64,000 nucleotides of DNA, taken from Saccharopolyspora dendranthemae. Its GTDB lineage: Bacteria; Actinomycetota; Actinomycetes; Mycobacteriales; Pseudonocardiaceae. Positions 8,405-22,746 of this stretch are shown here, one piece after another; position 1 is the stretch's first letter, and every line of letters starts with the position of its first letter. The notes under the pieces were generated by a model. That model worked only from the letters and a program-made list of their open reading frames with translations. It was not told where the DNA came from and searched no databases. Position numbers and translations under genes: made by a program. Where the stretch lies: the NCBI RefSeq assembly GCF_007829955.1, contig NZ_VIWX01000002.1, positions 1,240,001-1,304,000 on the forward strand. The letters are read 5' to 3'.

Positions 8405-9646
8405 GTGACGGCTTCGGGAGCGCCGCTCCCACGCCGGTTGGGCGTCGTCGACGCGACGTCGATCGGACTGGGGTCGATGCTCGGCGCCGGCGTGTTCGCG
8501 GTGTTCGCCCCGGCCGCTGCCGCCGCCGGGAGCGGACTGCTCATCGCCCTGGCGATCGCCGGGTTCATCGCCTTCTGCAACGCGATCAGCTCCGCTCAGC
8601 TGGCGGCCGCCTACCCCGCCTCGGGCGGGACCTACCTCTACGGCCGCGAACAGCTCGGTCATTGGTGGGGTTTCACCGCGGGGTGGGGTTTCGTCGTGGG
8701 CAAGACGGCCAGCTGCGCGGCGATGGCGCTGACCTTCGCCGCCTACGCCGCACCGGGTTTCGAGAAACCGGCGGCTGCGCTGGCGGTCGCCGTCCTGGCC
8801 GCGGTGAACTGCCTCGGCATCACCCGCACCGCCGCGCTGACCCGCGTGCTGGCCGTCGTGGTCCTGCTCGTGCTGGCGGTGTCGACGGCGGTGATCTTCC
8901 CGACCGCGCGACCCGGTGGCGCGCACGACTGGCTGCCGCACGGGCCGTTCGGCCTGGTGCAGGCGGCCGGTCTGCTGTTCTTCGCCTTCGCCGGTTACGC
9001 CCGCATCGCCACGCTCGGCGAGGAGGTCCGCGACCCCGCGCGCACGATCCCGCGCGCGATCCTGCTCGCCCTGCCGATAGCAGCGCTCACCTACGCGGGC
9101 GTGGGCCTGGCGGTGCTCCAGGCGCTGGGACCGCACGCGCTGGCCTCCAGCACCGCGCCGATCACCGATGCGCTCACCGCCGCCGGACGCGCGGAGTTCG
9201 CACCGGCGGTGCGTTTCGGCGCGGCCGCCGCCAGCCTCGGCGCGTTGCTCGCGCTGATCGCGGGAATCGGCCGCACCGGGCTGGCGATGGCGCGCGAGGG
9301 CGACCTGCCGCGACGGCTGGCCGCCGTGCACCCGCGCTTCGGCGTCCCGCAGCGCGCCGAGATCACCGTGGCGGTCGTGGTGATCGCGCTGGTGCTGACC
9401 GCGGACCTGCGCGGGGCGATCGGCTTCTCCAGCTTCGGCGTGCTGGTCTACTACGCCATCGCCAACGCGGCGGCCTTCACCCAGCCGCCCGCCGACCGCC
9501 GTTGGCCGAGGGCGTTCAACGTCACCGGACTGGCCGGATGTCTGCTGCTGGCCGCGACCTTGCCGTGGACCTCGGTGCTGGCGGGACTCGCAGTGTTCGC
9601 CGCAGGCGTCGGCGGCCGCCTGCTCAGCAGGGCACGCTCGGCGTGA
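8405..9646 (+). CDS. APC-family amino-acid permease
   Basis: This 413-residue integral membrane protein starts at GTG 8405, just past the methyltransferase stop. The first helix carries the family glycine signature (IGLGSMLGAGVF), followed by about eleven more hydrophobic segments. A loop with SGGTYLY and later LGEEVRDPARTIPRAI are typical of the amino acid-polyamine-organocation superfamily. It should move an amino acid or related amine across the membrane with a proton or by exchange; the substrate is not predictable. Its 3' end overlaps the 3' end of the convergent AfsR-like gene by 23 bp. Confidence 0.85.
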   Translation: MTASGAPLPRRLGVVDATSIGLGSMLGAGVFAVFAPAAAAAGSGLLIALAIAGFIAFCNAISSAQLAAAYPASGGTYLYGREQLGHWWGFTAGWGFVVGKTASCAAMALTFAAYAAPGFEKPAAALAVAVLAAVNCLGITRTAALTRVLAVVVLLVLAVSTAVIFPTARPGGAHDWLPHGPFGLVQAAGLLFFAFAGYARIATLGEEVRDPARTIPRAILLALPIAALTYAGVGLAVLQALGPHALASSTAPITDALTAAGRAEFAPAVRFGAAAASLGALLALIAGIGRTGLAMAREGDLPRRLAAVHPRFGVPQRAEITVAVVVIALVLTADLRGAIGFSSFGVLVYYAIANAAAFTQPPADRRWPRAFNVTGLAGCLLLAATLPWTSVLAGLAVFAAGVGGRLLSRARSA

Positions 9647-12590
9647 GCGCGGCGTTCAACCTCCTCCGCAGGTCCCCGGCCTCCGGCGCGTCGAGCTCCT
9701 CGTAGATGCCCACCGCCGTTTCCCAGTGCGCGGTCGCCGAATCGCGCCTGCCCGCTGCCTCCTCGATGTCGCCGAGACCGGTGTGCGCCCGCGCCCGCAC
9801 GTAATGGCTCGATCCGCTGCTGGCCACCGCCAGAGCGTGGCGGTGGCAGCGGGTCGCCTCGTCGTCGGCGCCCATCGCCATGTGCGTTTCGGCCAGCGCC
9901 GTGAGCACCATCGCCTCCAGGCTCGCCGACCGCATCCTGCGGGCGAACACCAGCGCCGCCTGGTGGCTCTCCATCGCCCGGAGGTAGTCGCCGAGACCGC
10001 TTCGGATGGTTCCCAGCCGGTGCAGGGTCATCCCCTCCAGGAACCGGATCCTGTTGCGACGGGCGAGGACCAGCGCTCGCTCGGCGTGCTCTTCCGCCTC
10101 CGCGAAGCGACCGAGGTCCCGGTACACACCGGACAGCGCGTAGGACGCGTCGGCTTCCCCCGGCCGGTATCCGTGCGCCGCTGCCACGCGGGACGCTTCC
10201 CGCAGGCATTCCAGCGATTCGGTGTGGCGTCCCCACCTTCGGTGCAGCCGGCCGAGGCAGATCAGCGGCCGCAGGCCCAGCAACCGCAACCCGGCCTGCT
10301 GGTAGAACCTCGACGACCGCCGGAGGTGCTCCAGCGCGAGCTCGGTGCGCCCGGTGAACACGCAGAGCTCCCCCAGGCTCAGCAGCACGGTCGCGGTCGC
10401 CGCCGGATCGCAGGCCCGCTGCAGAGCTCGTTCCAGAAGGTCGCGTGCGGAGTCGAACTCGTTGCGCCGGAAGTGCGCGACGCCGAGACCGCGCAGCGCG
10501 ACCCCTTCACCGACACGATCGCCGCACCGCTCTGCGATCTCCAGAGCCCTGCCGTGGATGCGTTGGGCTTCGTCGACGTGCCAGCCGAAGTCGAGCGCGG
10601 TGTCCAGCGCGGTGCCGAGTTCGACCGCGTAGTGGCCGAACTCGCCGTCCACCGTCTCCGCGATGCGCACCATGGTCTCGAGTTCCGAGTCGAGCCAGCG
10701 GGCCGCGTCCTCGTGATCGCGCATCGGTGGCACGTCGAACGCGGATTCCGCGGCGGAGAGGGCGTCGGGGGCGAGGAACCGGGAGGCCGTCGTCGCGGCC
10801 TGCAGGTAGTAGTCGTAGAGGCGCCGAAGCGATTCCCGCCGTTCGGCGCTGTTCTCGGTGATGCGGGACAACTCGGCCGCGTAGGTGCCCAGCAGATCGT
10901 GCAACCGGACCCGCTTTCCCGCGAGCTCCTCGACGAGGTGGGCGCGCACCAGCCGGGTCAGGCCGCGGCGGATCTCGCGGACGTCCACATCGGCCAGCGC
11001 GGCCAGCGAGTGGGCGTCCATCTTCCTTCCGGGGTGCAACCCGAGCAGCCGGAACAGCTTCGCCTCGGTTGCCGAGAGGTTGCGGTAGGAGGCCGCGAAG
11101 ATGGTCCGCACGCACGCTTGGGGATCACCGCTGTCGAGCAGGTCCAGCCGTGCCTGCGCGCAGCCGAACTCGTCGATGGTGTGCCGCAGCCCCCGGTCGC
11201 GGTGCCTGCGCACCCGCTCGGCGGCGATCCGCAGCGCCAGCGGCAGCCGCGCGCAGCACTCGATGAGCTCGCCGACCGCGTCCTCGTCGGTGGCCAGATC
11301 GCCCAGCAGCTCCTTGAGCAGCAGCCTCGCCTCGTCATCGGTCATGCGGTCGAGCTCCACCAGGCGCGCACCGTGTCCGACGACCAGTCCGTCGAGCTGG
11401 TGGCGACTGGTGATCACGACCGCGCAGTCGGCGTTGCCCGGCAGCAGCGGGCGGACCTGGTCGGCGCTGGCCGCGTTGTCGAGCAGCAGCAGCACGCGCT
11501 TGCCGTCGAGCAGGCTGCGCAGCCGCGCGGCGCGCTCCGCCAGGTCCAGCGGCACGTCCTTGCCGTCCACCCCCAGGGCTCGGAGCCACCCGGCCAGCAC
11601 ATCACCGGGTTCGGCAGGGGTGCCGGTGCCGAAGCCGCGGAGGTCGGCGTGCAGCTGACCGTCCGGGAAGCGGGACTTGACCCGGTGCGCCCAGCGCAGC
11701 ACCATCGCGGTCTTGCCCGCTCCGGCGGTGCCGGCCACGACCGCGATCGGGATCGTGCCGGGGTTTCCTGCGAGCATCGCGTCCAATTCGGACAGAGCGA
11801 CTTCTCGCCCCACGAAATCCGGTGCGCTGTGCGGAAGTTGGGCGGGGACGCGGGTCGCGCCGGCGAGCTCGACCACCTCGCCCGCGCGGATCTGCCCGTG
11901 CAGGGCGCGCAGTTCCGGACCCGGGTCCAGCCCGAGCTCGTCGTTGAGGACCTCGCACGTGTGCTGGTAGGCCGACAACGCCTCCGCCTGCCGCCCCGCG
12001 TGGTAGAGCGCCAGCATCAGCAGTCCGTGCAACCGCTCCCGAAGCGGATTGCGGTGCACGAGGTCGAGCAGCTCGCCGGCGACGGCCTCGTGGCGGCCCG
12101 CGCGCAGCTCGCCCGCGTAGAGCTCCTCGACCGCCAGCAACCGCTGCTCGGTGAGCCGTTCGACCACGGCATCGACGTCCGGCAGGTCCACCTCCTGGTA
12201 CGGCCTGCCCCGCCACATCCCCAGCGCTCGTCGCAGCAACCGGACCGCGCACCTCGGGTCCGGCTCGTCCGCCGCTTCCTCGATCAGCGCCTCGAACTCG
12301 GACGCGTCCAGCTCGTCCTTCCCGACCCGCAGGCGGTAACCGGCGGGGCCGTAGCTCAGGCGGTCGGGATCGTCGAGCTCGCGCCGCAGCCTGTGCACGT
12401 GGACCTGCAGCCGGCTCGCGCCCTGCACGACCGGGTCACCCCACATCGCTTCCAACAGCACGGTGACCGGTACCGGTTCGTTCGCGTGGGCGAGCAGCAC
12501 CGCCAGGAGCGTGCGCCGCAGCGCGCCGGTCACCGGCGACGCTCTGTCCCCGTCGAACATCCGGACCGGTCCAAGAACTTCGAACCGCAT
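9624..12590 (-). CDS. AfsR/SARP-family regulator with NB-ARC and TPR domains
   Basis: The product has 988 residues. An OmpR-like winged helix and bacterial transcriptional activation domain (BTAD) occupy about residues 1-245 (ALRRTLLAVLLAHANEPVP, then RLQVHVHRLRREL). An NB-ARC STAND ATPase follows with Walker A TAGAGKT near residue 290 and Walker B-like VLLLLDN near 375. The C-terminal 400 residues form tetratricopeptide-like repeats. This is the full-length architecture of AfsR, which activates secondary metabolism or stress genes in actinomycetes, often after phosphorylation by Ser/Thr kinases. No biosynthetic cluster is adjacent, so it may be a global regulator. The gene is preceded by the roughly 0.8-kb region up to 13.4 kb. 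Confidence 0.92.
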   Translation of the reverse strand: MRFEVLGPVRMFDGDRASPVTGALRRTLLAVLLAHANEPVPVTVLLEAMWGDPVVQGASRLQVHVHRLRRELDDPDRLSYGPAGYRLRVGKDELDASEFEALIEEAADEPDPRCAVRLLRRALGMWRGRPYQEVDLPDVDAVVERLTEQRLLAVEELYAGELRAGRHEAVAGELLDLVHRNPLRERLHGLLMLALYHAGRQAEALSAYQHTCEVLNDELGLDPGPELRALHGQIRAGEVVELAGATRVPAQLPHSAPDFVGREVALSELDAMLAGNPGTIPIAVVAGTAGAGKTAMVLRWAHRVKSRFPDGQLHADLRGFGTGTPAEPGDVLAGWLRALGVDGKDVPLDLAERAARLRSLLDGKRVLLLLDNAASADQVRPLLPGNADCAVVITSRHQLDGLVVGHGARLVELDRMTDDEARLLLKELLGDLATDEDAVGELIECCARLPLALRIAAERVRRHRDRGLRHTIDEFGCAQARLDLLDSGDPQACVRTIFAASYRNLSATEAKLFRLLGLHPGRKMDAHSLAALADVDVREIRRGLTRLVRAHLVEELAGKRVRLHDLLGTYAAELSRITENSAERRESLRRLYDYYLQAATTASRFLAPDALSAAESAFDVPPMRDHEDAARWLDSELETMVRIAETVDGEFGHYAVELGTALDTALDFGWHVDEAQRIHGRALEIAERCGDRVGEGVALRGLGVAHFRRNEFDSARDLLERALQRACDPAATATVLLSLGELCVFTGRTELALEHLRRSSRFYQQAGLRLLGLRPLICLGRLHRRWGRHTESLECLREASRVAAAHGYRPGEADASYALSGVYRDLGRFAEAEEHAERALVLARRNRIRFLEGMTLHRLGTIRSGLGDYLRAMESHQAALVFARRMRSASLEAMVLTALAETHMAMGADDEATRCHRHALAVASSGSSHYVRARAHTGLGDIEEAAGRRDSATAHWETAVGIYEELDAPEAGDLRRRLNAALTPSVPC

Positions 12591-13003: not shown

Positions 13004-13204
13004 CTACACCCCCCAGGTGTTCGCGTAGCTGTCTTTCCCCCAGTGCCAGGTGGTTGCACCACCGGCATCTGTTCTGATGATGAACGCTCCCCCGAACAGC
13101 GCACAAGCTTCTAGCCCGAGCAAATTTTCGCCATTTGCGGCGACTACCGCCCTGACCTGGCGCAACTCCACGCAGAACAGTTGATTTCGGTACCGGGCGA
13201 ACAC
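13004..13204 (-). CDS. Doubtful 66-residue ORF with Trp-rich end
   Basis: This minus-strand frame begins at GTG 13204 and ends at TAG 13004. The product has a hydrophobic middle and an unusual C-terminus with three tryptophans (TWHWGKDSY, ANTWGV). No ribosome-binding site is visible before the GTG, and the start lies inside a hairpin. I do not recognise it. Its composition looks more protein-like than the competing frames, which is the only argument for it. Confidence 0.2.
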   Translation of the reverse strand: MFARYRNQLFCVELRQVRAVVAANGENLLGLEACALFGGAFIIRTDAGGATTWHWGKDSYANTWGV

Positions 13205-13291
13205 GCCGCGCGCGTGTCGGACTCACCGGTTCGGACCACTTCCGAACGAGAGATCGGTGGTGAGGCGGCCCCCTCGCCCGCCTCACCACCG
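13201..13291. ncRNA. Candidate structured RNA: three tandem stem-loops
   Basis: Three inverted repeats follow one another: ACACGC/GCGTGT with a 5-nt loop (13201-13217), GTTCGGA/TCCGAAC with a 5-nt loop (13229-13247), and a 14-bp stem CGGTGGTGAGGCGG paired with CCGCCTCACCACCG (13255-13291) around the C-rich 9-nt loop CCCCCTCGC. The last resembles a strong terminator, or, read toward the carbonic anhydrase, a leader hairpin 117 nt before its start. The strand cannot be decided. Confidence 0.35.
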
Positions 13292-13408
13292 CGCGTCGAG
13301 CCTACGACGCCGGAGACGTCGTTGCGCGGTCAAAAATCGCCGGTCACCAGCGTGGTTTCCCCCACTTGCGATCTGCTGCGGCCACCCTGCTGGGTTAATG
13401 TCAGCGGC

Positions 13409-14041
13409 ATGAACCGCTCGCCGTCCACGCCTGCAGAAGCTTTCGCAACGCTGATGGAGGGCAACCAGCGCTTCGTCGAGAGCAGCCGCCTCCACCCCAA
13501 CCAGGACGCCGACCACCGCGCTTCCCTGGCACCCGGTCAGACTCCCTTCGCGGTGCTGTTCGGCTGCTCGGACTCCCGCCTCGCCGCCGAGATCATCTTC
13601 GATCGCGGCCTCGGCGACCTGTTCGTGGTGCGCACGGCCGGACAGGTGACCGGTTCCGAGGTCCTGGGCAGCATCGAGTACGGCGTCGCCGTGCTGGGCA
13701 CCCCCCTGGTCGTGGTGCTCGGCCACGACTCCTGCGGCGCTGTCGTCGCCGCGCGGAAGGCCGTCGTCGAGGGCAGCAACCCGCCCGGCTACCTGCGCGA
13801 CATCGTCGAGCGGGTGACTCCGAGCGTGCTGGCCGCCAACGCCGAGGGCGAGAACGACGTCGACGACATCGTCGACGTCCACATCCGGCGCACCAGCGAA
13901 CTGCTCGTCGAGCGCTCCTCGCTGCTGGCCGACGAGATCGCCGCCGGGCGCTGCGCCGTCGCAGGCCTCTCCTACCGGCTGGCGGACGGCACGGTCCGGC
14001 TCGTTTCCAGCCACGGACCGCTGCAGAGCAACGCCGCCTGA
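13409..14041 (+). CDS. Beta-class carbonic anhydrase
   Basis: The 210-residue enzyme interconverts CO2 and bicarbonate in the cytoplasm. The zinc ligands and active-site dyad of the beta class are all present: Cys53, Asp55 and Arg57 in FGCSDSR, and His106 and Cys109 in GHDSCG. ATG 13409 is chosen because the family's N-terminal helix (AFATLMEGNQRFV) begins a few residues later; frame-open starts upstream would add about 76 unrelated residues. No strong ribosome-binding site is visible. The gene stands alone, with a terminator after it. Confidence 0.93.
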   Translation: MNRSPSTPAEAFATLMEGNQRFVESSRLHPNQDADHRASLAPGQTPFAVLFGCSDSRLAAEIIFDRGLGDLFVVRTAGQVTGSEVLGSIEYGVAVLGTPLVVVLGHDSCGAVVAARKAVVEGSNPPGYLRDIVERVTPSVLAANAEGENDVDDIVDVHIRRTSELLVERSSLLADEIAAGRCAVAGLSYRLADGTVRLVSSHGPLQSNAA

Positions 14042-14086: not shown

Positions 14087-14166
14087 CCCGCGACCGCTCT
14101 CGGGACGCCGATCTCCGCGCCAGGCGTTAGCCTGCGAAGGCACGCTTGGCGAAAGGAAACGGCCGC

Positions 14167-16539
14167 GTGAGCTTCCAGCCGCGTCGAGTGCTACTGCTCA
14201 GCGCCACCATCGGTGAGGGCCACAACGCGACCGCCCGCGCTGTCGAGGAGGCCGCGCGCGAGGTCTGGCCCGGGTGCGAGGTGGTGTGGCTGGATGCGCT
14301 CAGCATCATGGGCCGCTGGGTTCCCCCGACGTTCAACTGGATCTACGTCACCAACGTCGAGTCGACGCCGTGGCTCTACGACTTCTTCTACGACGCGCTG
14401 TGGCGCTACCGCTGGTTCGCCAACGCCTGCAGGCGTTTCGTCGGAGCCTGGTGCGGCCCGCTGCTCCGCCGCGCGATCCGCCAGGTGGATCCGGACCTCG
14501 TCGTCTCCACCTATCCGCTCGGGACCGCCGGGCTGGACTGGATGCGCAGGCACGGCGACCTGGACGTGCCCGTCGCGGCGATCGTGTCGGACTTCGCGCC
14601 CCACCCGTTCTGGGTGTACCCGGAGGCCGACCTGCACCACGTGATGAGCGAAGCGAGCCTGCGCGCGATGCGGCGATCCGAGCCCTACGCGGTCGGCGCC
14701 GTGTCCGCACCTCCGGTCCGCCGCGATTTCGCACCCCGCGACCGCGCTGCGGCCCGCTCGGAGTTCGGCTTCCCGGAATCCGGTTTCACCGCCTTGATCT
14801 CGTGCGGGGCCCTGAGCTTCGGCTCCGTGGAGCGCGCCGTGGACGCGGCGCTGCGCGTCGAGGGGATCGACAGGGTGCTGGTGGTCTGCGGGCGCAACGG
14901 GGCCCTGCGGGAACGACTGCTCGCCAGGGGCGAGCGGCGGCTGGAGCCGCTGGGCTGGGTGGAGGACATGCCCGGGCTGATGGCCTGTTCGGACGTGGTG
15001 ATCACCAACGCCGGTGGCGCCACCGCGCTGGAGGCGCTGGCGTGCGGCCGGGCGGTCCTGATGTTCGAGCCGATCGCCGGCCACGGCAGGGCCAACGCCG
15101 AGCTGATGGCGGACGCGGGACTGGCCGAGCTCTGCCCGCGCGAGTCGCAGCTGATCTCGACGCTGCGCCGCTGGATCACCGAGCCGCAGGAGCTGCGCGA
15201 CCGCGAGGAGCGGGCGCTCAAGCACAGCCGGTCGGCCGAGTTCACCGACCAGATCGCGGCGCTGGCCGGACTTCGGCGCCACAGCGGTCCGCGTCGGCTC
15301 CGCGCCCAGGACGCCTTCTTCGTCTACGCCACCACACCTGAGGTGCCGCAGCAGACGGGCGCGATCCTCTCGCTCGAACCGTCGCCGGATTCAGCACAGG
15401 CGTGGTGCCAACACCTCTCGCACCGCATCGAGCAGCACGCGGCGACTCTCCCCGTGCTCACGCGGACCCTGGTGAACCGGACCGGTCGACGTCCGATGTG
15501 GACCGATGCGGGCACGATCGACCCGGCCGGGCATCTCGACTGCCGGCAGTTGCGCTCCGATGAGGACGCCGACGCGATCACGAGCGAGTTCTTCTCGACG
15601 CAGGTGCCCACCGACCGGCCGCCGTGGCAGCTGCAGCTGCTGCACGACCCCGCGACCGGACGGGTGACCGTGCTGGCGAAGATGCACCACTCCCTCGGCG
15701 ACGGGCTGGCGGTCACCAGCGCGCTGGTGACCTTGCTCTGCGACGGGCACAACCCGGCGTCCGCCCCCGGCTCGGGCAGGCGGTCCTGGCGGCAGCGCGT
15801 CCCCGAGGTGCTTCGCGGGCTCGTCGGCCTGGCGACCTCCGCGGGTGCCTCCAGCCGCACCTGGACGGGCCGCAGCTCTCCGGCGCGCAGCTTCGGTCAC
15901 CTGGCGCTGCCCGCCGTGCGGGTTCGGGCTCGCGCCCGCGATCACGGCGTGACCAGCAGCGCCCTGCTGATCGGCCTGGCAGCCGAGGCGCTGCACCGAG
16001 CCATGGGCGAGCAGCGCGCTGATGCCCGGTTCCGGGTCATGGTGCCGCGCACCGCCCGCACCGGGCGCAACGGCGCCGGAACCGCCGCACCGGGCAACCA
16101 CACCCACACCCTCTCGGTGGACCTGCCGGTCGGGCCGATGCCGCTGGTGTGGCGGATCCGGGCGGTCGCCGACGCGCTCGCCGAGCCCGACCACAGCGGA
16201 CAGCCCGAGGCCGCCGGGGCCGTGCTGGCCGGTCTGGGTCTGCTCCCGGCCCCGTTGCACGCCTGGGTCGTGCGGCGCATCTACGGCAGCCGGTTCTTCA
16301 ACGCGGTCGTCTCGGTGATGCCCGGACGGCGCCGCCCGGCGCACGTCAACGGAACCCTCCTCAGCCGTGTGCTGCCGGTGCTCTCCCTCGCCGACGGCGT
16401 GGGCGTGGCCATCGGCGCGATCGGCTGGGGCGAGGAGTTCGGCTTCGGCATCACCACCGACCCCGCGCTCGCGCCCGCCGCCGGAGAGCTCGCCGACCAC
16501 CTGCGGGACGCGTTCGACGAGCTCCGGGAGCGAGGATGA
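14167..16539 (+). CDS. Glycosyltransferase (MGDG synthase-like) fused to WS/DGAT acyltransferase
   Basis: The 790-residue product joins two lipid enzymes. Residues 5-165 match the MGDG-synthase-type N-terminal glycosyltransferase domain (IGEGHNAT, His19). Residues 190-350 match the GT28/MurG-like nucleotide-sugar half (ITNAGGATALEAL). From about residue 380 to the end it resembles bacterial wax ester synthase/diacylglycerol acyltransferases. The catalytic HHxxxDG motif is at residues 507-513 (HHSLGDG), and a C-terminal segment near VVSVMPG replaces the family's NVPGP. The likely roles are sugar transfer to diacylglycerol and acyl-CoA-dependent acylation of the same or a related alcohol. GTG 14167 is chosen because AAAGGA lies at proper spacing; TTG 14146 precedes that site. 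It heads an operon with a DMT transporter (ATGA overlap) and an SDR. Confidence 0.82.
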   Translation: MSFQPRRVLLLSATIGEGHNATARAVEEAAREVWPGCEVVWLDALSIMGRWVPPTFNWIYVTNVESTPWLYDFFYDALWRYRWFANACRRFVGAWCGPLLRRAIRQVDPDLVVSTYPLGTAGLDWMRRHGDLDVPVAAIVSDFAPHPFWVYPEADLHHVMSEASLRAMRRSEPYAVGAVSAPPVRRDFAPRDRAAARSEFGFPESGFTALISCGALSFGSVERAVDAALRVEGIDRVLVVCGRNGALRERLLARGERRLEPLGWVEDMPGLMACSDVVITNAGGATALEALACGRAVLMFEPIAGHGRANAELMADAGLAELCPRESQLISTLRRWITEPQELRDREERALKHSRSAEFTDQIAALAGLRRHSGPRRLRAQDAFFVYATTPEVPQQTGAILSLEPSPDSAQAWCQHLSHRIEQHAATLPVLTRTLVNRTGRRPMWTDAGTIDPAGHLDCRQLRSDEDADAITSEFFSTQVPTDRPPWQLQLLHDPATGRVTVLAKMHHSLGDGLAVTSALVTLLCDGHNPASAPGSGRRSWRQRVPEVLRGLVGLATSAGASSRTWTGRSSPARSFGHLALPAVRVRARARDHGVTSSALLIGLAAEALHRAMGEQRADARFRVMVPRTARTGRNGAGTAAPGNHTHTLSVDLPVGPMPLVWRIRAVADALAEPDHSGQPEAAGAVLAGLGLLPAPLHAWVVRRIYGSRFFNAVVSVMPGRRRPAHVNGTLLSRVLPVLSLADGVGVAIGAIGWGEEFGFGITTDPALAPAAGELADHLRDAFDELRERG

Positions 16540-17444
16540 GTTCCGGGACCGTGCTGCCGGTGGCCGTGCCCGCCGCGGTGATCGGCGCCGCGAGCTTCGG
16601 CATGGCCAGCGCGATCCAGCACCGCGTCACCAAGCAGGTCCCGCAGGTCGCCACCTTCAGCCCCAGGATGCTCTGGGACCTGGTGCGCAAACCGATCTGG
16701 GTGCTGAGCATCGGCACCGTCATCATCGGGCTGTCGCTGCAGGTGGTGGCGTTGGCGTTCGGGCCGCTGGTGCTCGTGCAGCCGCTCCTGGTGACCTCGG
16801 TGCTGTTCGGCGCGGGGTTCGCGGCCTGGCTGGCGGGCAGGCGGATGGACCTGGTGCTGGCGCTCGGCGCCCTGTCGTGCGCGGGCGGGCTGGCGGCGTT
16901 CCTGCTGCTGGCCCGTCCTTCCGGCCAGGGCAGCGAGTTCACCGGGGAACCCGTGGTCCCCCTGGCCCTGGGGATGGCGCTGCTGGTGGTCCTCTCGCTG
17001 CTGGCCGCCCGGTGGCTGCCGGGCGAGTTCGGCGTGGTGGGTCTGGCCGTGGCCACCGGTGTGTTCTACGGCGTCACGGCCGGGCTGATGCGGGTGGTGG
17101 CCGGCCAGTTCCGCGCCGGAGGGATCGTGGAGCCCTTCGGTCACTGGACGCTGTACGTGGTGTGCGTGATCGGGCCGATGGGATTCCTGCTGAGCCAGCA
17201 GACCTTCCAGCGCGGCCGGTTGATGTCCCCGTCGCTGGCGGTGATCACCACGGTGGATCCGCTGGTCTCGGCGGCGATCGGGGTGAGCTGGCTGGGCGAG
17301 CGCATCGAGTCCTCCCCCGCGATCCTGGCCGGAGAGGTGGTGGCCGCCGCGCTCATCGTGGGCGGCATCGCCGTGCTGGCCCAGCGCAGCGAGCAGATCG
17401 GCCGTGAACTCACCGAGCGGGAGGGGACCGAGTCGTGGGGGTGA
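16536..17444 (+). CDS. DMT-superfamily (EamA-like) membrane transporter
   Basis: The 302-residue protein is almost entirely hydrophobic, with about nine or ten predicted helices in two similar halves, as in drug/metabolite transporters. Its ATG overlaps the stop of the fusion gene (ATGA), implying translational coupling. Two short polar motifs (QHRVTKQ near residue 25 and SQQTFQRGRL near 225) recur in actinobacterial members of this group. The substrate is unknown. Its place between a glycolipid/acyltransferase gene and an SDR makes export or flipping of a lipid-linked or small metabolite possible, but that is inference only. Confidence 0.75.
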   Translation: MSSGTVLPVAVPAAVIGAASFGMASAIQHRVTKQVPQVATFSPRMLWDLVRKPIWVLSIGTVIIGLSLQVVALAFGPLVLVQPLLVTSVLFGAGFAAWLAGRRMDLVLALGALSCAGGLAAFLLLARPSGQGSEFTGEPVVPLALGMALLVVLSLLAARWLPGEFGVVGLAVATGVFYGVTAGLMRVVAGQFRAGGIVEPFGHWTLYVVCVIGPMGFLLSQQTFQRGRLMSPSLAVITTVDPLVSAAIGVSWLGERIESSPAILAGEVVAAALIVGGIAVLAQRSEQIGRELTEREGTESWG

Positions 17445-18127
17445 GCTCCGCCCTCGTCACGGGTGCGTCTTCGGGGATCGGCGCTGCCATCGCGATCCGG
17501 CTCGCCGCCGACGGCTGGCGGGTGGTCCTGGCGGGCCGCGACCGCGCACGCCTGGACGCGCTGGCCGAGCGCACCGGCGGCTGCGCCATCTCCGCTGACC
17601 TGACCACCGCCGAAGGCCTGCAGCGGGTGGCCGACGCCGGGCGCGGGGTCGACCTGCTGGTGCACAGCGCGGGTGCCGGCTGGGCCGGGAAGTTCCGCGA
17701 GATGCGGCCGGAGCACGTCGACCAGCTGGTCGAGCTGAACCTCACCGCCCCGATCCGCCTGACCCGCGCGGTGCTGCCGCCCCGGGTCGCGTTCGTCGCC
17801 TCGGTCGCCGTGGTGGGCGTGCGCGATGAAGAGGTCTACTCAGCCACCAAAGCAGGGCTGCGCGCGTTCGCGGCGAGCCTGCGGCACAGCGGCGTCCGCA
17901 CCACCGCGGTGTTCCCCGGTGCGGTGCGCACACCGTTCTTCCGCGACCGCGACTACCACCGCCGCTTCCCGCGCATGGTCGAACCGGAGCAGGTGGCCGA
18001 CGCCCTCATCGACGCCGTGCTGCGCAGCCGCGCCGAGGTCTTCGTCCCGCGCTGGCTGACCATCGCCGACCGCGTGCACGGCATCTCGCCCGCGCTGTTC
18101 CACCGGCTGGCGGACAGGTTCGGCTGA
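17435..18127 (+). CDS. Short-chain dehydrogenase/reductase
   Basis: The 230-residue enzyme has the classical SDR Rossmann motif TGASSGIG at about residues 8-15, an HSAGAG version of the NNAG motif and the catalytic YSATK (YxxxK). The serine partner lies in FVASVAVVG. The glycine pattern with Arg residues after the second strand favours NADP(H). GTG 17435 has GGAGGGG 8 nt upstream. GTG 17441 would give a 4-bp GTGA overlap with the transporter stop and is a close alternative. It is the last gene of the fusion-transporter-SDR operon and converges on hpnH. It is not an HpnA-type extended SDR. Confidence 0.88.
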   Translation: MGVSSALVTGASSGIGAAIAIRLAADGWRVVLAGRDRARLDALAERTGGCAISADLTTAEGLQRVADAGRGVDLLVHSAGAGWAGKFREMRPEHVDQLVELNLTAPIRLTRAVLPPRVAFVASVAVVGVRDEEVYSATKAGLRAFAASLRHSGVRTTAVFPGAVRTPFFRDRDYHRRFPRMVEPEQVADALIDAVLRSRAEVFVPRWLTIADRVHGISPALFHRLADRFG

Positions 18128-18136
18128 TCGCCCTGG

Positions 18137-19138
18137 TCAGCTGCGCACCGCGCGCAGCGATTCGCGCAGCGAGCCCATCGTCGCCAGCACCGAGGTCGGC
18201 TCGTAGCCGCAGTGGGCCATGCAGTTCGCGCAGCGGGGGTCGTTCCCGCGCCCGTAGGCGTCCCAGTCGGTGTCCTCCAGCAGCTCCTCGTAGGAACTCG
18301 CGTACCCGTCGCTCATCAGGTAGCAGGGCCGCTGCCAGCCGTAGAGCGAGTAGGAGGGGATGGCCCACGCGGTGCAGGCGAAGTCGACCTCTCCTTCGAG
18401 GAAGTCCAGGAACAGCGGCGAGTGGTTGAAGCGCCACCTCTTGCGCCGCCCGTCGCCGAAGACCTTCTTGAACAGCTCGCGCGTTTCGGAGACCCCGAGG
18501 AAGTGCTCCTGATCCGGTGCCTTGTCGTAGGCGTAGGCCGGGGACAGCATCATCTGGTCGACCTTCAGGTCGTTGTTGAGGTAGTCGAGCACCTCGATGA
18601 CCGACTGCGGAGTGTCGGTGGTGAAGAACGTCGAGTTCGTGGTGATCCGGAAACCCCGGCGCTGCGCGTCCTTGACGTTGTCGACGGCTTGGGCGAAGAC
18701 GCCCTTCTTGCACACCGAGGCGTCGTGGCGCTCCTCCAGGCCGTCGATGTGCACCGCGAAGGAGAAGTAGGGCGACGGCTCGAACTTCTCGATCTTGCGT
18801 GGCATCAGCAGCGCGTTGGTGCACAGGTAGACGAACTTCTTGCGCTTGACCAGCTCCTTGACCAGCACCTCGATCTCGGGGTGCATCAGCGGCTCGCCTC
18901 CGGCGATGGACACCACCGGGGCGCCGCACTCCTCGACCGCCGCCAGCGCCTGCTCGACCGGCATCCGCTGCTTGAGCACGCTCGCCGGGTGCTGGATCTT
19001 GCCGCACCCGGCGCAGGCGAGGTTGCAGGCGAACAGCGGCTCCAGCTCGAGGGTCAGCGCGAACTTCTCGCGCCGGGCCAGCTTCTGCTTCATCAGGTAC
19101 GCACCGACGCGAACCGCCTGGCGCACTGGAATGCCCAT
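18137..19138 (-). CDS. hpnH: Adenosyl-hopene transferase HpnH (radical SAM)
   Basis: The 333-residue protein is a B12-independent radical SAM enzyme that joins the 5'-deoxyadenosyl group of SAM to hopene, giving adenosylhopane, the first step in making side-chain-extended hopanoids. The cluster-binding cysteines are Cys38, Cys42 and Cys45 in CNLACAGC. A SAM-binding AGGEPLMHP segment follows, and the C-terminus has the Cys-containing GNDPRCANCMAHCGYEP typical of HpnH. It is the last gene of the hopanoid operon, two bases after hpnG. In Streptomyces the cluster continues with other genes such as an aminotransferase (hpnO), which are absent here. Confidence 0.95.
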   Translation of the reverse strand: MGIPVRQAVRVGAYLMKQKLARREKFALTLELEPLFACNLACAGCGKIQHPASVLKQRMPVEQALAAVEECGAPVVSIAGGEPLMHPEIEVLVKELVKRKKFVYLCTNALLMPRKIEKFEPSPYFSFAVHIDGLEERHDASVCKKGVFAQAVDNVKDAQRRGFRITTNSTFFTTDTPQSVIEVLDYLNNDLKVDQMMLSPAYAYDKAPDQEHFLGVSETRELFKKVFGDGRRKRWRFNHSPLFLDFLEGEVDFACTAWAIPSYSLYGWQRPCYLMSDGYASSYEELLEDTDWDAYGRGNDPRCANCMAHCGYEPTSVLATMGSLRESLRAVRS

Positions 19139-19140
19139 CG

Positions 19141-19800
19141 CTACAACGCCTCCTCACAGGTCGTGCGAACTTCCGGCGGGATGTGACGACCCCACCGCCG
19201 CAGGCAGGAGCCCACGGCGTGCAGCCGCGCAAGCCCCGACAGGGCTCGGCGGGCCGTGCCGGGCCGCAGCAGCGGGTGCTGCCGGGTGTCGACCACGACT
19301 CGCACGACCGCCAGCGGTCGGTGCCCGGCGGCCTGGGCGAGCACGGCCGATTCCATGTCCACGGCCAGCGCCCCGGTCGCGGCGAGGTCGGCGCGGCGCT
19401 GACCGCGCACCAGTGCCTCGGTGGTCACGACGGGCCCGCAGCGCACCGGGAACCCGCTGCGCGCGAGCTCGGCGGCCAGAGACCGGGCCGTGTCGCAGCG
19501 CAGCACCTCGTGACGCCCGCGCACCTCGTCGGCGACGATCACGTCCCCGCTTCGCACCTCCGGCGCCAGCCCGCCCGCCAGTCCTGCGACCACGAGCACG
19601 TCGAAGTCGGCGGCCAGCAGCCGGACCGCGCTCTCCGCGCTGCGGCGCGGCCCGTACCCCGTGCGGCGCACGGTCACCGAATCGGCGCCGAGACCGGTGG
19701 TGCGCAGCGGTTCCTGGGCGGAGGCGACTCCCCCGGCAGCGGAACGCAGCGCACTGGCCTCCAGTCGCATCGGCGCGCAGATCAGCATCCTCGTCGACAT
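19141..19800 (-). CDS. hpnG: Hopanoid-associated nucleosidase/phosphorylase HpnG
   Basis: The 219-residue protein has the nucleoside phosphorylase fold of the MTA/SAH nucleosidase type: an early GYG segment, VVAGLAGGL, the conserved GDVIVADEV strand, and AVDMESA with the Met-Glu pair that binds ribose near residue 150. In hopanoid producers this protein acts after HpnH to remove adenine from adenosylhopane. One base separates it from the cyclase stop and two bases from the hpnH start, so it is within the same transcript. The family name is well supported by context; by sequence alone it would be a generic nucleosidase. Confidence 0.9.
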   Translation of the reverse strand: MSTRMLICAPMRLEASALRSAAGGVASAQEPLRTTGLGADSVTVRRTGYGPRRSAESAVRLLAADFDVLVVAGLAGGLAPEVRSGDVIVADEVRGRHEVLRCDTARSLAAELARSGFPVRCGPVVTTEALVRGQRRADLAATGALAVDMESAVLAQAAGHRPLAVVRVVVDTRQHPLLRPGTARRALSGLARLHAVGSCLRRWGRHIPPEVRTTCEEAL

Positions 19801-19801
19801 G

Positions 19802-21742
19802 TCACTCCCCGTCCCGCAGGTAGCGCCCGAGCGCCGTCAGCGGGAAGATCACCCGGTACAGGTGGTAGTTGATGTAGAAGTCCCCCGGGAACCCGGTTCC
19901 GGTGAACTCCGGTTCGTCCCAGCCACCGTCGGCGCGCTGGCTGCGGGCCAGGTAGCCGACTCCGCGGCGCACCGCGTCGGTGTCGTGCTTTCCCATCGCC
20001 AGCAGCGCCATCAGCGCCCACCCGGTCTGAGAAGCCGTCGAGTTCCCGCGGCCGATCCACTGCGGATCGTCGTAGGAGCGCAGGTCCTCGCCCCAACCGC
20101 CGTCGTCGTTCTGGTGGTTCTCCAGCCAGCGCACGGCATCCCGCAGCGCCCGGTGCTGGCGATCCACTCCGGACGCGACCAGCGCGGGCACGACGGCGCC
20201 GGTGCCGTAGACGTGGTTGGCGCCCCACCGCCCGAACCACGACCCATCGCGCTCCTGGTTGGCCAGCAACCACTTCACGCCGCCGCGCAGCACCGCGTCG
20301 TCCTCGCCGAGCACGGCGAGCGCCTCGACGACGTGCGCGGTCACGTCCGCCGACGGCGGGTCGATGACCGCGCCGAAGTCGCAGAACGGCAGCTTGGTCA
20401 CCAGTTGCCGCGTGTTGTCGGCGTCGAACGCGGCCCAGCCGCCGTCGGAGGAGCACATGCCGCGCAGCCACCGCAGACCGCGCTCGATGGCTCGCCGCAC
20501 GGCGGCTGGGTCGGTGTGCTCGACCCGGTTGAGCGCGAGCAGCACCTCGGCGGTGTCGTCGATGTCGGGGTAGCCGTCGTTGTCGAACTCGAACGCCCAG
20601 CCTCCGCCCGCGGGCAGGGACGGGCGCTTGACCGACCAGTCGCCCTTGACCCGGATCTCCTCGGTGAGCAGGAAGTCGGTCGCGCGCCGCAGCGCCGGGT
20701 GGTCGGCGGGCACGCCCGCGTCGCGCAGCGCCTGCATCCCCAGCACCGTGTCCCACACCGGCGACTGGCAGGCCTCCAGCCTGCGGACCGTTCCCCCGTC
20801 GGTCTGCTCGCGGATCAGGAACCGCTCCAGCCCGGCGAGCCCGTGGGCGATCACCGGGTGGTCCAGGGAGTAGCCGAGCAGGTGCAGCGCGAGGATCGAG
20901 TACACCCACGGCGGCTGGATCCCGCCCCACGATCCGTCGGCTTCCTGGCGGGCGACGATCCACTCCGCGGCGCGCAGCATCGCGTGCTTGCGCAGCGATC
21001 TCACCGGACGCCGGTGGTAGCGGTGCAGGACGCGGTCGAGGGTGTGGAAGCCGTAGGCCCAGGACCACTCGCGGATCGGGCGCACCGCGGGGCGCCCGGT
21101 GCGCAGTTCGCGCACGTCGGTGCCCAGGTCGCGTTGCGGACGCAACGTGCAGACCACGGTCAGCGGCACCACGGTCTGGCGGGCCCAGGACGCCCAGTCG
21201 GAGACGTTGAGCGGGCACCACGTCGGCAGCAGCACGACTTCCGGTGGCATCGCGGGCAGGTCGTCCCAGGACCACTCGCCGAACATCGCCAGCCAGATCC
21301 GGGTGAACACCCGGGTCTCCTCGATGCCCCCGTGGGCCAGGATCCACTCGCGCGCCTCGCGCATGTGCGCGGAATCGGCGTCGTCTCCGGCGAGCTTGAG
21401 CGCGGTGTAGGCCTCGACGGTCGTCGACAGGTCCCCGGGTCCGCCGTGGAAGGTCGCCCACGTCCCGTCCTCGCGCTGCTGGGATCGGATCCAGCGCGCC
21501 GCCTGCGCGGTCTCGGAGGCGGTCCGGATGCCGAGGAACTGCCGCAGCAGCAGGTCTTCGACGTCCATGGTCACGTTGGTGGCCAGCTCGCCCTTCCACC
21601 AGCCCTCCGGGCTCTGCAACGACAGCAGGTGGTCGCGGGCGGCCAACGCCGCCGTGCGGGCGTCGGCTCGCGCCGATCCCTGAGTGGGGATCTGCGCGGC
21701 AGTGGCGGCCGGACTGGTGGACTTCTGCAGCTGTTCCGTCAC
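19802..21742 (-). CDS. shc: Squalene-hopene cyclase
   Basis: The 646-residue enzyme cyclises squalene to hopene and diplopterol at the membrane. The protonating DxDD motif is at residues 393-396 (DIDD), preceded by EFDNDGYP. Several QW repeats are present, for instance GSWGGIQPPW, GGWAAFDADN, DGSWFGRWG, DGGWGEDL and DGGWDEPEF. GTG 21742 overlaps the stop of the polyprenyl synthase gene (GTGA), which supports that start over the much longer open frame. The length fits the family (about 630-680). The gene lies in the centre of the hopanoid operon. Confidence 0.97.
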   Translation of the reverse strand: MTEQLQKSTSPAATAAQIPTQGSARADARTAALAARDHLLSLQSPEGWWKGELATNVTMDVEDLLLRQFLGIRTASETAQAARWIRSQQREDGTWATFHGGPGDLSTTVEAYTALKLAGDDADSAHMREAREWILAHGGIEETRVFTRIWLAMFGEWSWDDLPAMPPEVVLLPTWCPLNVSDWASWARQTVVPLTVVCTLRPQRDLGTDVRELRTGRPAVRPIREWSWAYGFHTLDRVLHRYHRRPVRSLRKHAMLRAAEWIVARQEADGSWGGIQPPWVYSILALHLLGYSLDHPVIAHGLAGLERFLIREQTDGGTVRRLEACQSPVWDTVLGMQALRDAGVPADHPALRRATDFLLTEEIRVKGDWSVKRPSLPAGGGWAFEFDNDGYPDIDDTAEVLLALNRVEHTDPAAVRRAIERGLRWLRGMCSSDGGWAAFDADNTRQLVTKLPFCDFGAVIDPPSADVTAHVVEALAVLGEDDAVLRGGVKWLLANQERDGSWFGRWGANHVYGTGAVVPALVASGVDRQHRALRDAVRWLENHQNDDGGWGEDLRSYDDPQWIGRGNSTASQTGWALMALLAMGKHDTDAVRRGVGYLARSQRADGGWDEPEFTGTGFPGDFYINYHLYRVIFPLTALGRYLRDGE

Positions 21743-22746
21743 AGCTTCCTCCGTACGATGAATTCGGCGAGCTCTCCCAGTGCCGCGGTGTCCCCCAGCG
21801 ATCCGGCCTCGAGCTGTGCCTCCGCGAGCTCGAGCCGACGCCGGCACTCCCGGCGCGTCCAGTCCTCGGAACCGGCGCGGCGCACCATTTCCGCGGCTTC
21901 GTGCAACTGCTCCTCGGTGAGCCGGTCGGGCTGCTCGTAGAGCTCCCACAACCGCTCCCCGGCCGCGGTGCCGGAGGTCAGGGCGTGCACCACCGGGACC
22001 GACTTCTTGCGGGTGCGCAGATCCGACAGCACCGGCTTGCCGGTGACGTCCGGGTCTCCCCACAGACCCAGCAGGTCGTCGACCAGCTGGAAGGCCATGC
22101 CCAGTTCGGTGCCGTAGGCGTGCAGGGCGCGGACGTTCTCGCGCGAGGCACCCGCGCTCAGCGGACCGAGGGAGCAGGCGCAGGCCAGCAGCGCGGCCGT
22201 CTTGTCGTGCGCCATGGACAGGCACTCGGTGAGCTCGACGTCGTTGCGGTGCTCGAAGTCGAGGTCGGCGGCCTGCCCGGCGATGAGCACGCGGGTGGTG
22301 GTCAGCAGCGAACGCACGGCCACCGAGGCGTGGGGCGCCGACGACTCCAGCAGCACCTCGGGCGCCACGGCCAGCAGCGCGTCACCGGCCAGGATCGCCG
22401 CCGGGGAGCCGAAGACCGTCCAGGCGGTGGGCCGGTGCCTGCGGGAGGCATCACCGTCCATCACGTCGTCGTGCAGCAGCGAGAAGTTGTGCACCAGTTC
22501 CACGGCCGCAGCGGCGGGAACGCCGTTCTCCGCCGAGCCGCAGGCGATCTCGCTGGCTGCCAGCACCATCGCCGGGCGGACGGCCTTGCCCCCGGCGTCG
22601 GTCGGCGCCCCGGCCGGGTCGACCCAGCCGAAGTGGTACTCGCTGACCCTGCGGGTGTCGGGGTCCAGTCGTGCCACCGCGGAGCGCAACGTGGGTTCCA
22701 CCAGTTCCCGCGCGGTGCGCAGCGCGGGGGGCAGCAGCGTCGTCAT
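21739..22746 (-). CDS. Polyprenyl diphosphate synthase of the hopanoid operon
   Basis: The 335-residue prenyltransferase belongs to the trans-isoprenyl diphosphate synthase family. The first aspartate-rich motif is DDVMD at residues 93-97, after LVHNFSLLH, and the second is DDLLGLWGD with the Lys pair of GKPVLSDLRTRKKS following. It should make farnesyl (or geranylgeranyl) diphosphate from IPP and DMAPP. Its place directly before the cyclase and after hpnE argues that it supplies FPP for squalene. ATG 22746 overlaps the hpnE stop (ATGA), and its own stop overlaps the cyclase GTG, so translation is coupled on both sides. Confidence 0.93.
   Translation of the reverse strand: MTTLLPPALRTARELVEPTLRSAVARLDPDTRRVSEYHFGWVDPAGAPTDAGGKAVRPAMVLAASEIACGSAENGVPAAAAVELVHNFSLLHDDVMDGDASRRHRPTAWTVFGSPAAILAGDALLAVAPEVLLESSAPHASVAVRSLLTTTRVLIAGQAADLDFEHRNDVELTECLSMAHDKTAALLACACSLGPLSAGASRENVRALHAYGTELGMAFQLVDDLLGLWGDPDVTGKPVLSDLRTRKKSVPVVHALTSGTAAGERLWELYEQPDRLTEEQLHEAAEMVRRAGSEDWTRRECRRRLELAEAQLEAGSLGDTAALGELAEFIVRRKL

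Follow-up and report, generated by a model that had tools for sequence, protein, structure and literature searches.

The Fusion Gene and Its Surroundings

In the window, by which is meant the whole 64,000-nucleotide stretch of Saccharopolyspora dendranthemae DNA that was analysed, an uninterrupted frame of 790 amino acids occupies positions 14167–16539 of the plus strand. In the ORF translation, it runs from a GTG at 14167 to a TGA at 16537–16539. The sequence AAAGGA (14152–14157) is located 9 nt 5′ of this start codon; an alternative start, the TTG at 14146, would give 797 amino acids. The frame encodes a fusion of a GT28 glycosyltransferase (GT, residues 1–372) with a WS/DGAT acyltransferase (WS, residues 373–790), as Pfam and a confidently predicted AlphaFold structure both show, and GC3 is 0.93 and 0.91 in the respective halves. 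An earlier note on this DNA had read both enzymes in a single 790-residue frame, and the frame is indeed intact with Pfam matches in both halves. The note had also raised the prospect of an assembly error. The full-length fusion is present in all 22 genomes of the genus, the window’s own counted, which rules out a sequencing or assembly artefact as its source. It is likewise full length in 63 of 74 fetched loci (L034–L107); the other 11 comprise 10 Amycolatopsis loci with the GT alone and L102, which is truncated by the contig end.

The fusion is the first gene of a GT-WS/DMT/SDR operon that is convergent with hopanoid genes. The second gene (16536–17444, plus strand) encodes a DMT-superfamily transporter (NF038012 DMT_1, 78.4 bits, cut-off 50), the ATG of which (16536–16538) overlaps the fusion stop codon in an ATGA. 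The third (17435–18127, plus strand) encodes a classical SDR (Pfam adh_short, 110.7 bits) with its GTG at 17435 overlapping the DMT end at 17444. The translational coupling that the earlier note had proposed for these genes is thus upheld, as is the facing hopanoid operon: the SDR gene ends at 18127 and hpnH ends convergently at 18137. Of the 63 fused loci, 60 have a DMT gene and 57 an SDR no more than 4 kb away from the fusion, and an SDR relative scoring above 200 bits was found in 14 of 40 HpnH regions. The DMT protein may be a lipid flippase or exporter, while the SDR is a candidate reductase for the ribosylhopane/BHT (bacteriohopanetetrol) step.

The hopanoid operon is carried on the minus strand. 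It begins on the side of the fusion with HpnH, the adenosyl-hopene transferase (18137–19138; TIGR03470, 523 bits, cut-off 225), followed by an HpnG-like hopanoid-associated phosphorylase (19141–19800), for which TIGR03468 is the best match at 87.8 bits, below its cut-off of 187.1. The squalene-hopene cyclase (SHC) occupies 19802–21742 (TIGR01507, 750.9 bits, cut-off 431); its start at 21742 is the likely one, chosen by eye, and the open frame extends to 22225. Next are a polyprenyl diphosphate synthase (21739–22752; NF041169, 432 bits against a cut-off of 450; IdsB, 307 against 475), HpnE, the hydroxysqualene dehydroxylase (22743–24173; TIGR03467, 410.7 bits, cut-off 283), HpnD, the presqualene diphosphate synthase (24098–24973; TIGR03465, 290.3 bits, cut-off 278.6), and HpnC, the squalene synthase (24958–25866; TIGR03464, 255.5 bits, cut-off 250.45).

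The Two Halves of the Fusion

The GT half (14167–15282, plus strand) is recognized as an MGDG-synthase-like GT28 enzyme from its domains, fold and motifs. Pfam places MGDG_synth at residues 19–169 (50.9 bits, cut-off 25) and Glyco_tran_28_C at 210–354 (30.0 bits, cut-off 22). The motifs picked out in the earlier note are in place, with GEGH at residues 16–19 and NAGGATALEAL at 281–291, as well as HHSLGDG at 507–513 in the WS half. Residues H19, N281, G283, G284 and E289 are each invariant in all 64 aligned fusions; the last four belong to the C-terminal donor-binding motif, and H19 is the GxGH histidine, which we take to be catalytic by the precedent of MGD1. The model of residues 6–371 superimposes on MGD1 (4x1t) with a Z-score of 30.3 and an rmsd of 2.9 over 301 aligned residues. 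The closest solved relatives are diacylglycerol (DAG) glycosyltransferases, namely the processive DAG glucosyltransferase 9wde and MGD1; against NF010135, the diglucosyl-DAG synthase equivalog, the fusion scores 112 bits, under the cut-off of 500.

The WS half (15283–16539, plus strand) is assigned by Pfam, fold and clade. WS/DGAT similarity after residue ~380 was a further point to be checked from the earlier note, and it is found as WS_DGAT_cat at 378–570 (60.9 bits, cut-off 23.6) and WS_DGAT_C at 643–786 (51.0 bits, cut-off 20.7), so that all four domains of the fusion exceed their curated cut-offs. The score against TIGR02946 (acyl_WS_DGAT) is 175.9 bits, below the cut-off of 309.95. The model of residues 376–790 matches 6chj_A (Z-score 36.5, rmsd 3.0, 342 aligned). 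Across the 64 aligned fusions the HHxxxDG motif is almost invariant, with H507 in 63 and H508, D512 and G513 in all 64.

The NVPGP site is occupied by VVSVMPG at residues 714–720, with SVMPG in place of the motif itself. This alteration had been described in the earlier note as a possible sign of special or weak activity. It does exist, but it does not mark the decay of a single enzyme, since the Asn is gone in 64 of 64 fusions (the position being V in 38, Y in 20, I in 4 and F in 2) and HHxxxDG is retained. The Asn is kept in 24 of 26 other WS/DGATs.

Association with HpnH and the Hopanoid Loci

The link of the fusion to hopanoids is strong. Among 61 relatives, the fusion is found in 28 genomes, and HpnH exceeds its cut-off in every one of these, while none of the 29 relatives lacking HpnH carries the fusion. 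The relatives span 38 genera, and the seven fused genera are all among the 11 with HpnH. In the named fusion genomes, HpnH was found in 38 of 38, 37 over the cut-off and one as a partial match at a contig edge. One genome bears two handles, G023 among the 28 and G451 among the 38, as does another (G269/G469). The search for HpnH by locus was run on 50 of 55 loci, leaving out L073, L087, L091, L093 and L110. In a sample of the class (394 genomes, two candidates scored per genome), at least two full fusions were found, both in genomes with HpnH. The fusion is thus restricted to HpnH genomes in the sets compared.

The two genes are also physically close. They share a contig in 28 of 28 relatives, 27 of them within 15 kb, and in 27 of 38 named genomes, 26 of them within 15 kb; in the remaining 11 draft genomes, they lie on separate contigs. 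In 53 of the 55 same-contig cases the distance is 12 kb or less, the exceptions being a relative at 48 kb and a named genome at 22.5 kb. A region test found a GT or WS in 10 of 40 HpnH regions (8 GT, 3 WS, one with both) and in 0 of 20 same-genome controls, and its Fisher p of 0.023 is indicative only, as some regions were chosen for a known GT/WS hit near HpnH. In the hopanoid regions of two families, f33 (5 of 5 regions) and f32 (14 of 14), neither GT nor WS was present; they are therefore not core hopanoid genes.

HpnH occurs in 92 and SHC in 90 of the 394 genomes of the class sample, with G072 and G094 having HpnH without SHC. As these sets nearly coincide, a side-chain role and a general role in hopanoid membranes are indistinguishable by this comparison. 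The GT alone was considered as a hopanoid marker and is too broad, as its family also occurs in genomes without HpnH (10 such rows in the GT tree). Eight GTs that stand alone in hopanoid clusters constitute a clade of their own in that tree (SH-aLRT 99), away from the fused one, and the fused and unfused proteins may therefore differ in function. The GT of the hopanoid cluster of G143 (row L118, labelled “elsewhere” in the tree) falls outside both clades.

The Acyltransferase Clade and Its Partners

In the WS tree, the GT-fused, PAP2-fused and Amycolatopsis hopanoid-locus domains share one side of a branch with support of 100/100, opposite 20 generic WS/DGATs. Of 76 distinct fused rows, 29 entered a first tree. 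The tree described here was built from that set less five very divergent generic sequences, a PAP2 row that was nearly a duplicate, and six fused rows, with seven Amycolatopsis rows added. Members of this clade are fused either to a GT28 of the present type or to a PAP2_3 domain, and PAP2_3-WS proteins are found in the hopanoid loci of L239, L232, L246 and Amycolatopsis. In the class sample, again with two candidates scored per genome, at least 11 genomes match a PAP2-WS protein at E ≤ 1e-40; all have HpnH, and 10 of these 11 matches belong to the WS clade.

Eight of the 10 Amycolatopsis loci with the GT alone were followed, leaving out L091 and L093. Seven of the eight genomes searched have a separate clade WS located 8.9–10.5 kb from HpnH, and in the eighth, G485, no clade WS was found. 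The separate WS is fused to PAP2_3 in 4 of 4 tested by Pfam. All seven have an SDR in the vicinity, and five of the seven have a DMT there.

Proposed Function and Alternatives

On balance, the fusion is probably a two-step tailoring enzyme of actinobacterial hopanoids, adding a sugar and an acyl group to the side chain of a bacteriohopanepolyol, the presumed acceptor. This reading is favoured because of the fusion itself, its intact motifs, both folds, the operon, the co-occurrence and clustering with HpnH, the lack of any HpnI over its cut-off and the clade WS of Amycolatopsis. HpnH and HpnG produce ribosylhopane through adenosylhopane, and the operon SDR may reduce ribosylhopane to BHT. The GT28 half would then draw on a nucleotide-sugar to glycosylate the BHT side chain. 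The WS half, probably acting next, would use acyl-CoA to esterify a hydroxyl of the glycoside or polyol through the HHxxxDG histidine. The predicted product is an acylated glycosyl-BHT, which the DMT protein could move across the membrane.

A broader proposal is put forward tentatively, as a possibility that we rather doubt: a previously unrecognised actinobacterial hopanoid branch leading to acylated glycosyl-bacteriohopanepolyols, in which the GT28-WS/DGAT fusion (or a GT with a PAP2-WS/DGAT) would replace the HpnI route, the SDR would be the reductase so far missing between ribosylhopane and BHT, and the DMT protein would transport the lipid. HpnI is the glycosyltransferase of the BHT cyclitol ether route. 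HpnI (TIGR03472) exceeded its cut-off in 0 of 50 HpnH-positive actinobacterial genomes, a count to be read beside 14 control genomes in which none passed either, with no positive control. PMC5462960 lists HpnI among three genes for BHT cyclitol ether and still terms the enzyme from ribosylhopane to BHT unknown. The SDR was found in 2 of 7 HpnH regions with an HpnO-type aminotransferase motif and in 12 of 33 without it, the motif expression also having hit chance frames in L145 and the control L196. A mutual exclusion of the two is not clear from these counts, which makes the new branch slightly less likely.

The earlier note had envisaged a protein drawing on a single DAG pool, either deciding between glycolipid and triacylglycerol (TAG) or making an acylated glycolipid. 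Of these, an acylated glycolipid remains the preferred product. The switch is disfavoured, as the fusion genomes are all HpnH-positive and the WS clade is linked to hopanoids, and is probably not the main story. A related alternative, which we regard as unlikely but worth serious attention, is a DAG enzyme co-inherited with hopanoids. The GT would make monoglycosyl-DAG, and the WS would acylate it or make TAG, yielding a lipid needed for the packing of hopanoid membranes with no common intermediate. The nearest solved GT relatives do act on DAG; PAP2_3, the alternative partner of the WS, could yield DAG from phosphatidic acid; and a role in DAG metabolism would suit GT28-MGDG, PAP2 and WS/DGAT alike. 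PMC11719660 reports MGDG, DGDG and their esters, with an MGDG-synthase-like gene, in Paenarthrobacter lasiusi, and the MGDG esters of this Arthrobacter relative lend the alternative further weight. By itself, however, it predicts neither the co-occurrence with HpnH in 28 of 28 and 38 of 38 genomes nor the HpnH-positive status of all 10 WS-clade genomes of the class sample.

It is improbable that the WS half esterifies BHT directly, as fatty-acyl or aryl esters, with the GT half acting on another lipid and the fusion co-localising two branch enzymes. BHT esters are present in Frankia, and hopanoid loci with PAP2 in place of the GT beside the WS would fit such a scheme, but the full fusion in 63 of 74 loci suggests related substrates for both halves. 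Loss of the NVPGP Asn throughout the fusions could be taken to mean that the WS half has no catalytic activity and serves as a scaffold or binds lipid. This appears very improbable given the near-invariance of HHxxxDG in the same 64 proteins, the intact WS fold of the model and the clade WS that accompanies the hopanoid genes in 7 of 8 Amycolatopsis with an unfused GT.

Significance and Comparison with Known Systems

Hopanoids are the bacterial counterparts of sterols; the chemistry of their side chains is a biomarker in geochemistry and influences the membranes of bacteria. Here, one operon holds candidates for hopanoid glycosylation, acylation, reduction and transport. As these sit in a single operon that can be knocked out, open questions on hopanoid side chains become testable. 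The acyltransferase family is of biotechnological use and its members are usually read as wax or TAG synthases; one clade is now tied to triterpenoid lipids. Neither a GT28-WS/DGAT fusion nor a WS/DGAT-hopanoid link was found described in the literature searched, the coverage of which excludes most subscription journals.

The fusion resembles MGDG synthase and DAG glucosyltransferase (MGD1, 4wyi/4x1t; 9wde) in its MGDG_synth and GT28_C domains, GxGH histidine and fold, but differs in the fused WS/DGAT, the hopanoid locus and the sub-cut-off NF010135 score. With the WS/DGATs of Marinobacter (6chj) and AbWSD1 (7nxg) it shares WS_DGAT_cat and WS_DGAT_C, the HHxxxDG and GN motifs and the fold, whereas its NVPGP is replaced, its TIGR02946 score is below cut-off, its clade lies outside the 20 generic WS/DGATs and a GT precedes it. 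HpnI would have a role in common with the fusion, the addition of a sugar to BHT, yet TIGR03472 is not among the six NCBIfam matches of the fusion (E up to 1). The PAP2_3-WS/DGAT fusions have a sister WS domain and are likewise found in hopanoid loci, but they carry PAP2_3 rather than GT28 at the N-terminus and keep the NVPGP Asn in 7 of 8.

Fusion Protein and Gene Order

The fusion gene (window 14167-16539) is a single open frame of 790 codons, preceded at proper spacing by AAAGGA. Its first 354 residues match MGDG_synth and Glyco_tran_28_C over curated Pfam cut-offs and residues 378-786 match WS_DGAT_cat and WS_DGAT_C likewise, which bears out the earlier note's claim of a WS/DGAT domain following a glycosyltransferase (GT) in one frame. 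The AlphaFold model (38 homologues as input) has a mean pLDDT of 89.4 and a pTM of 0.78; its N half aligns with MGD1 (4x1t; Z 30.3, 301 residues, 2.9 Å) and its C half with a WS/DGAT (6chj; Z 36.5, 342 residues, 3.0 Å). Across the window's protein and 63 fusions taken from loci (64 in all), H19, N281, G283, G284 and E289 of the GT half are invariant, and HHxxxDG is kept at H507 in 63 and at H508, D512 and G513 in all. The altered NVPGP motif that had been noticed in the window extends to the whole set, with the Asn missing in 64/64. The protein scores under the curated thresholds of NF010135 and TIGR02946.

In the window, the fusion, DMT transporter (16536-17444) and SDR (17435-18127) genes overlap head to tail. 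The operon does face the hopanoid genes, as had been claimed, with 9 bp between the end of the SDR gene and that of the convergent gene for HpnH (adenosyl-hopene transferase). The opposing genes encode HpnH, an HpnG-like protein (below cut-off), squalene-hopene cyclase, polyprenyl synthase, HpnE, HpnD and HpnC. The polyprenyl synthase (21739-22752) scores 432 bits (cut-off 450) against the family 2 encapsulin cargo polyprenyl transferase model. Upstream of the fusion are an AfsR/SARP-like regulator (9624-12590) and a carbonic anhydrase (13181-14041), placed beside it by tblastn in 5 and 11 of 16 Saccharopolyspora loci, respectively.

Association with Hopanoid Genes

The generality of this hopanoid neighbourhood is what is new relative to the first observation. 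The full-length fusion gene occurs in all 22 Saccharopolyspora genomes searched, including the window's own. A GTDB contig scan gave 79 loci, in Saccharopolyspora, Pseudonocardia, Amycolatopsis, Kutzneria, Sciscionella, Gandjariella, Micromonospora, Actinocatenispora, Actinopolymorpha, Arthrobacter, Sinomonas, Amnibacterium and several uncultured lineages; five Streptomycetaceae loci hold GT alone. The full fusion is present in 63 of 74 loci (L034-L107), with a DMT gene no more than 4 kb away in 60 of them and an SDR gene in 57. HpnH lies within the fetched flank in 36 of these 63, and in 12 of the 20 genera or MAG labels that hold fusions; four further labels (Amycolatopsis, Gandjariella, Pseudonocardiales MAGs and Pseudonocardia acaciae) have it within 15 kb. 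At locus L243 (genome G025), the fusion has beside it, in the opposite direction, another GT of this family that stands alone (10775-11803).

In a set of 61 genomes of relatives, 28 carry the full fusion and each of these has HpnH over cut-off; the fusion is found in 0 of the 29 that are HpnH-less. Four HpnH-positive relatives have no full fusion: G047 and G060 carry GT alone, ~8.7 and ~2.8 kb from HpnH, respectively, G057 carries PAP2-WS ~8.5 kb from it, and neither GT nor WS was found in G041, a MAG that is 86% complete. All 50 genomes from which the named loci come have HpnH, which passes the cut-off in 49; 38 of the 50 hold the fusion, and eight Amycolatopsis and four Streptomycetaceae hold GT alone. 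In the class-wide sample, by comparison, HpnH is present in 92/394; at least two full fusions occur there and both found are HpnH-positive. G451 among the 38 and G023 among the 28 are one and the same genome, which brings the number of distinct fusion genomes tested to 65. In all 28 relatives the fusion lies on the HpnH contig, at 48 kb in one and within 15 kb in 27, of which 24 are within 5 kb. The same holds for 27/38 named genomes, one of them at 22.5 kb and 26 within 15 kb (13 within 5 kb); the other 11 drafts have the two genes on separate contigs. The seven fused genera all fall among the 11 HpnH genera of 38 in the relatives (hypergeometric 2.6e-5), a co-occurrence p-value that, like others of its kind, is rough because of shared descent.

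A Hopanoid-Linked WS/DGAT Clade

Proteins whose WS domain is related, near hopanoid genes of fusion-less genomes (L239, L232, L246), carry an N-terminal PAP2_3 in place of GT. In the tree, such PAP2_3-WS/DGAT fusions of hopanoid loci (L239:14348-16345, L246:6877-9042, L232:8822-10939, L295:5123-7153) come out as sister to the window fusion's WS half. In the careful tree, 23 GT-fused, seven PAP2-fused, seven Amycolatopsis hopanoid-locus and one L251 WS split from 20 generic WS/DGATs with 100/100 support, the GT-fused rows forming one clade (100/99); a quick tree that included five further, more divergent generic rows split the same way (SH-aLRT 96). A PAP2-WS query matched at least 11/394 class genomes at E<=1e-40, all 11 HpnH-positive (hypergeometric 7e-8, likewise rough): two GT-fusions, seven PAP2-WS, G357, a clade member with no PAP2 by Pfam, and G144. 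The G144 match groups with generic WS/DGATs, leaving 10/11 genomes in the hopanoid-linked ACYLTRANSFERASE clade.

In the GT tree, the fused GTs form a group (SH-aLRT 85) with the second GT of L243 and four GT-alone proteins of Amycolatopsis. Since the Amycolatopsis proteins are nested among fused GTs, they are best read as having lost the WS half. A separate clade WS lies 8.9-10.5 kb from HpnH in 7/8 searched Amycolatopsis genomes with GT alone; the fragmented G485 gave generic WS matches only. Within ~4.5 kb of this WS are an SDR (7/7 fetched regions) and a DMT (5/7). They occupy the flank of HpnH toward the squalene-hopene cyclase, which is also the place of the SDR-DMT-fusion block in fused Amycolatopsis. 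These DMTs are more distant relatives (120-132 bits, versus ~375-394 in fused Amycolatopsis). The separate WS is a PAP2_3-WS by Pfam in 4/4 tested, and a PSLH motif lies in frame upstream in 5/7. In Amycolatopsis, the hopanoid locus thus retains a WS acyltransferase while the partner fused to it varies. Conversely, GT lies in or near the hopanoid cluster of six HpnH-positive genomes (G047, G143, G145, G218, G356, G380) in which no WS was matched at E<=1e-12; therefore, GT activity can be useful without the clade acyltransferase.

GT and WS are found in 0/5 hopanoid regions of family f33 and 0/14 of f32 (perhaps Streptomyces-like and Frankia-like, respectively), so not every hopanoid cluster has them; PAP2-WS occurs elsewhere in the genome in at least three f32 genomes of the class sample. 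Many f32 genomes have two HpnH copies at different sites (e.g., L152, L153, L157, L158, L163, L164), and in three looked at, one copy is without SHC or HpnG in the fetched 20 kb.

Proposed Function and Precedent

The SDR relative is spread more widely in HpnH regions than GT or WS, exceeding 200 bits in 14/40 (best in 20 control regions, 100 bits). The window's protein is a classical SDR adjoining HpnH, with relatives also in HpnH clusters that have neither GT nor WS. It is a candidate for the missing reductase of ribosylhopane; the ribosylhopane-to-BHT enzyme is called still unknown in the excerpted text of PMC5462960. Clear exclusion between the SDR and an HpnO-type aminotransferase would have favoured this role, but no clear exclusion emerged: the SDR occurs in 2/7 regions with the aminotransferase motif versus 12/33 without. 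HpnI (TIGR03472) is over cut-off in 0/50 HpnH-positive genomes, 32 of them with fusion, and also in none of the control genomes, which thus give no positive control; 24 of the 50 have weak matches such as other glycosyltransferases usually give.

It is proposed that the SDR, then the GT28 domain and then WS/DGAT would act on the hopanoid side chain, and that the DMT would move the product; the acceptor, the sugar and the order of steps are those we infer. The main rival, that the acceptor is diacylglycerol and that linkage to hopanoid genes reflects membrane co-adaptation, appears less likely. In its favour, each partner domain has relatives that use or make diacylglycerol, and the lipidome of the actinomycete Paenarthrobacter lasiusi, an Arthrobacter relative, reports MGDG esters (PMC11719660). 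The same lipidome also lists acylhexosyl sterols; such annotations might hide acyl-hexosyl triterpenoids.

The literature searches turned up no account of this GT-WS/DGAT fusion, and none that ties a WS/DGAT to hopanoid biosynthesis. For hopanoid tailoring, other bacteria are known on chemical grounds to have N-acylated BHPs and a glycosyl-BHT whose glucosamine carries an N-acyl group (PMC8537080, whose excerpted text names no acylation gene), and these therefore provide precedent for the proposed kind of product. Compared with known families, the fusion departs from NF010135, TIGR02946 and NVPGP, but it has the Pfam families and both folds; both of its domains belong to known families.
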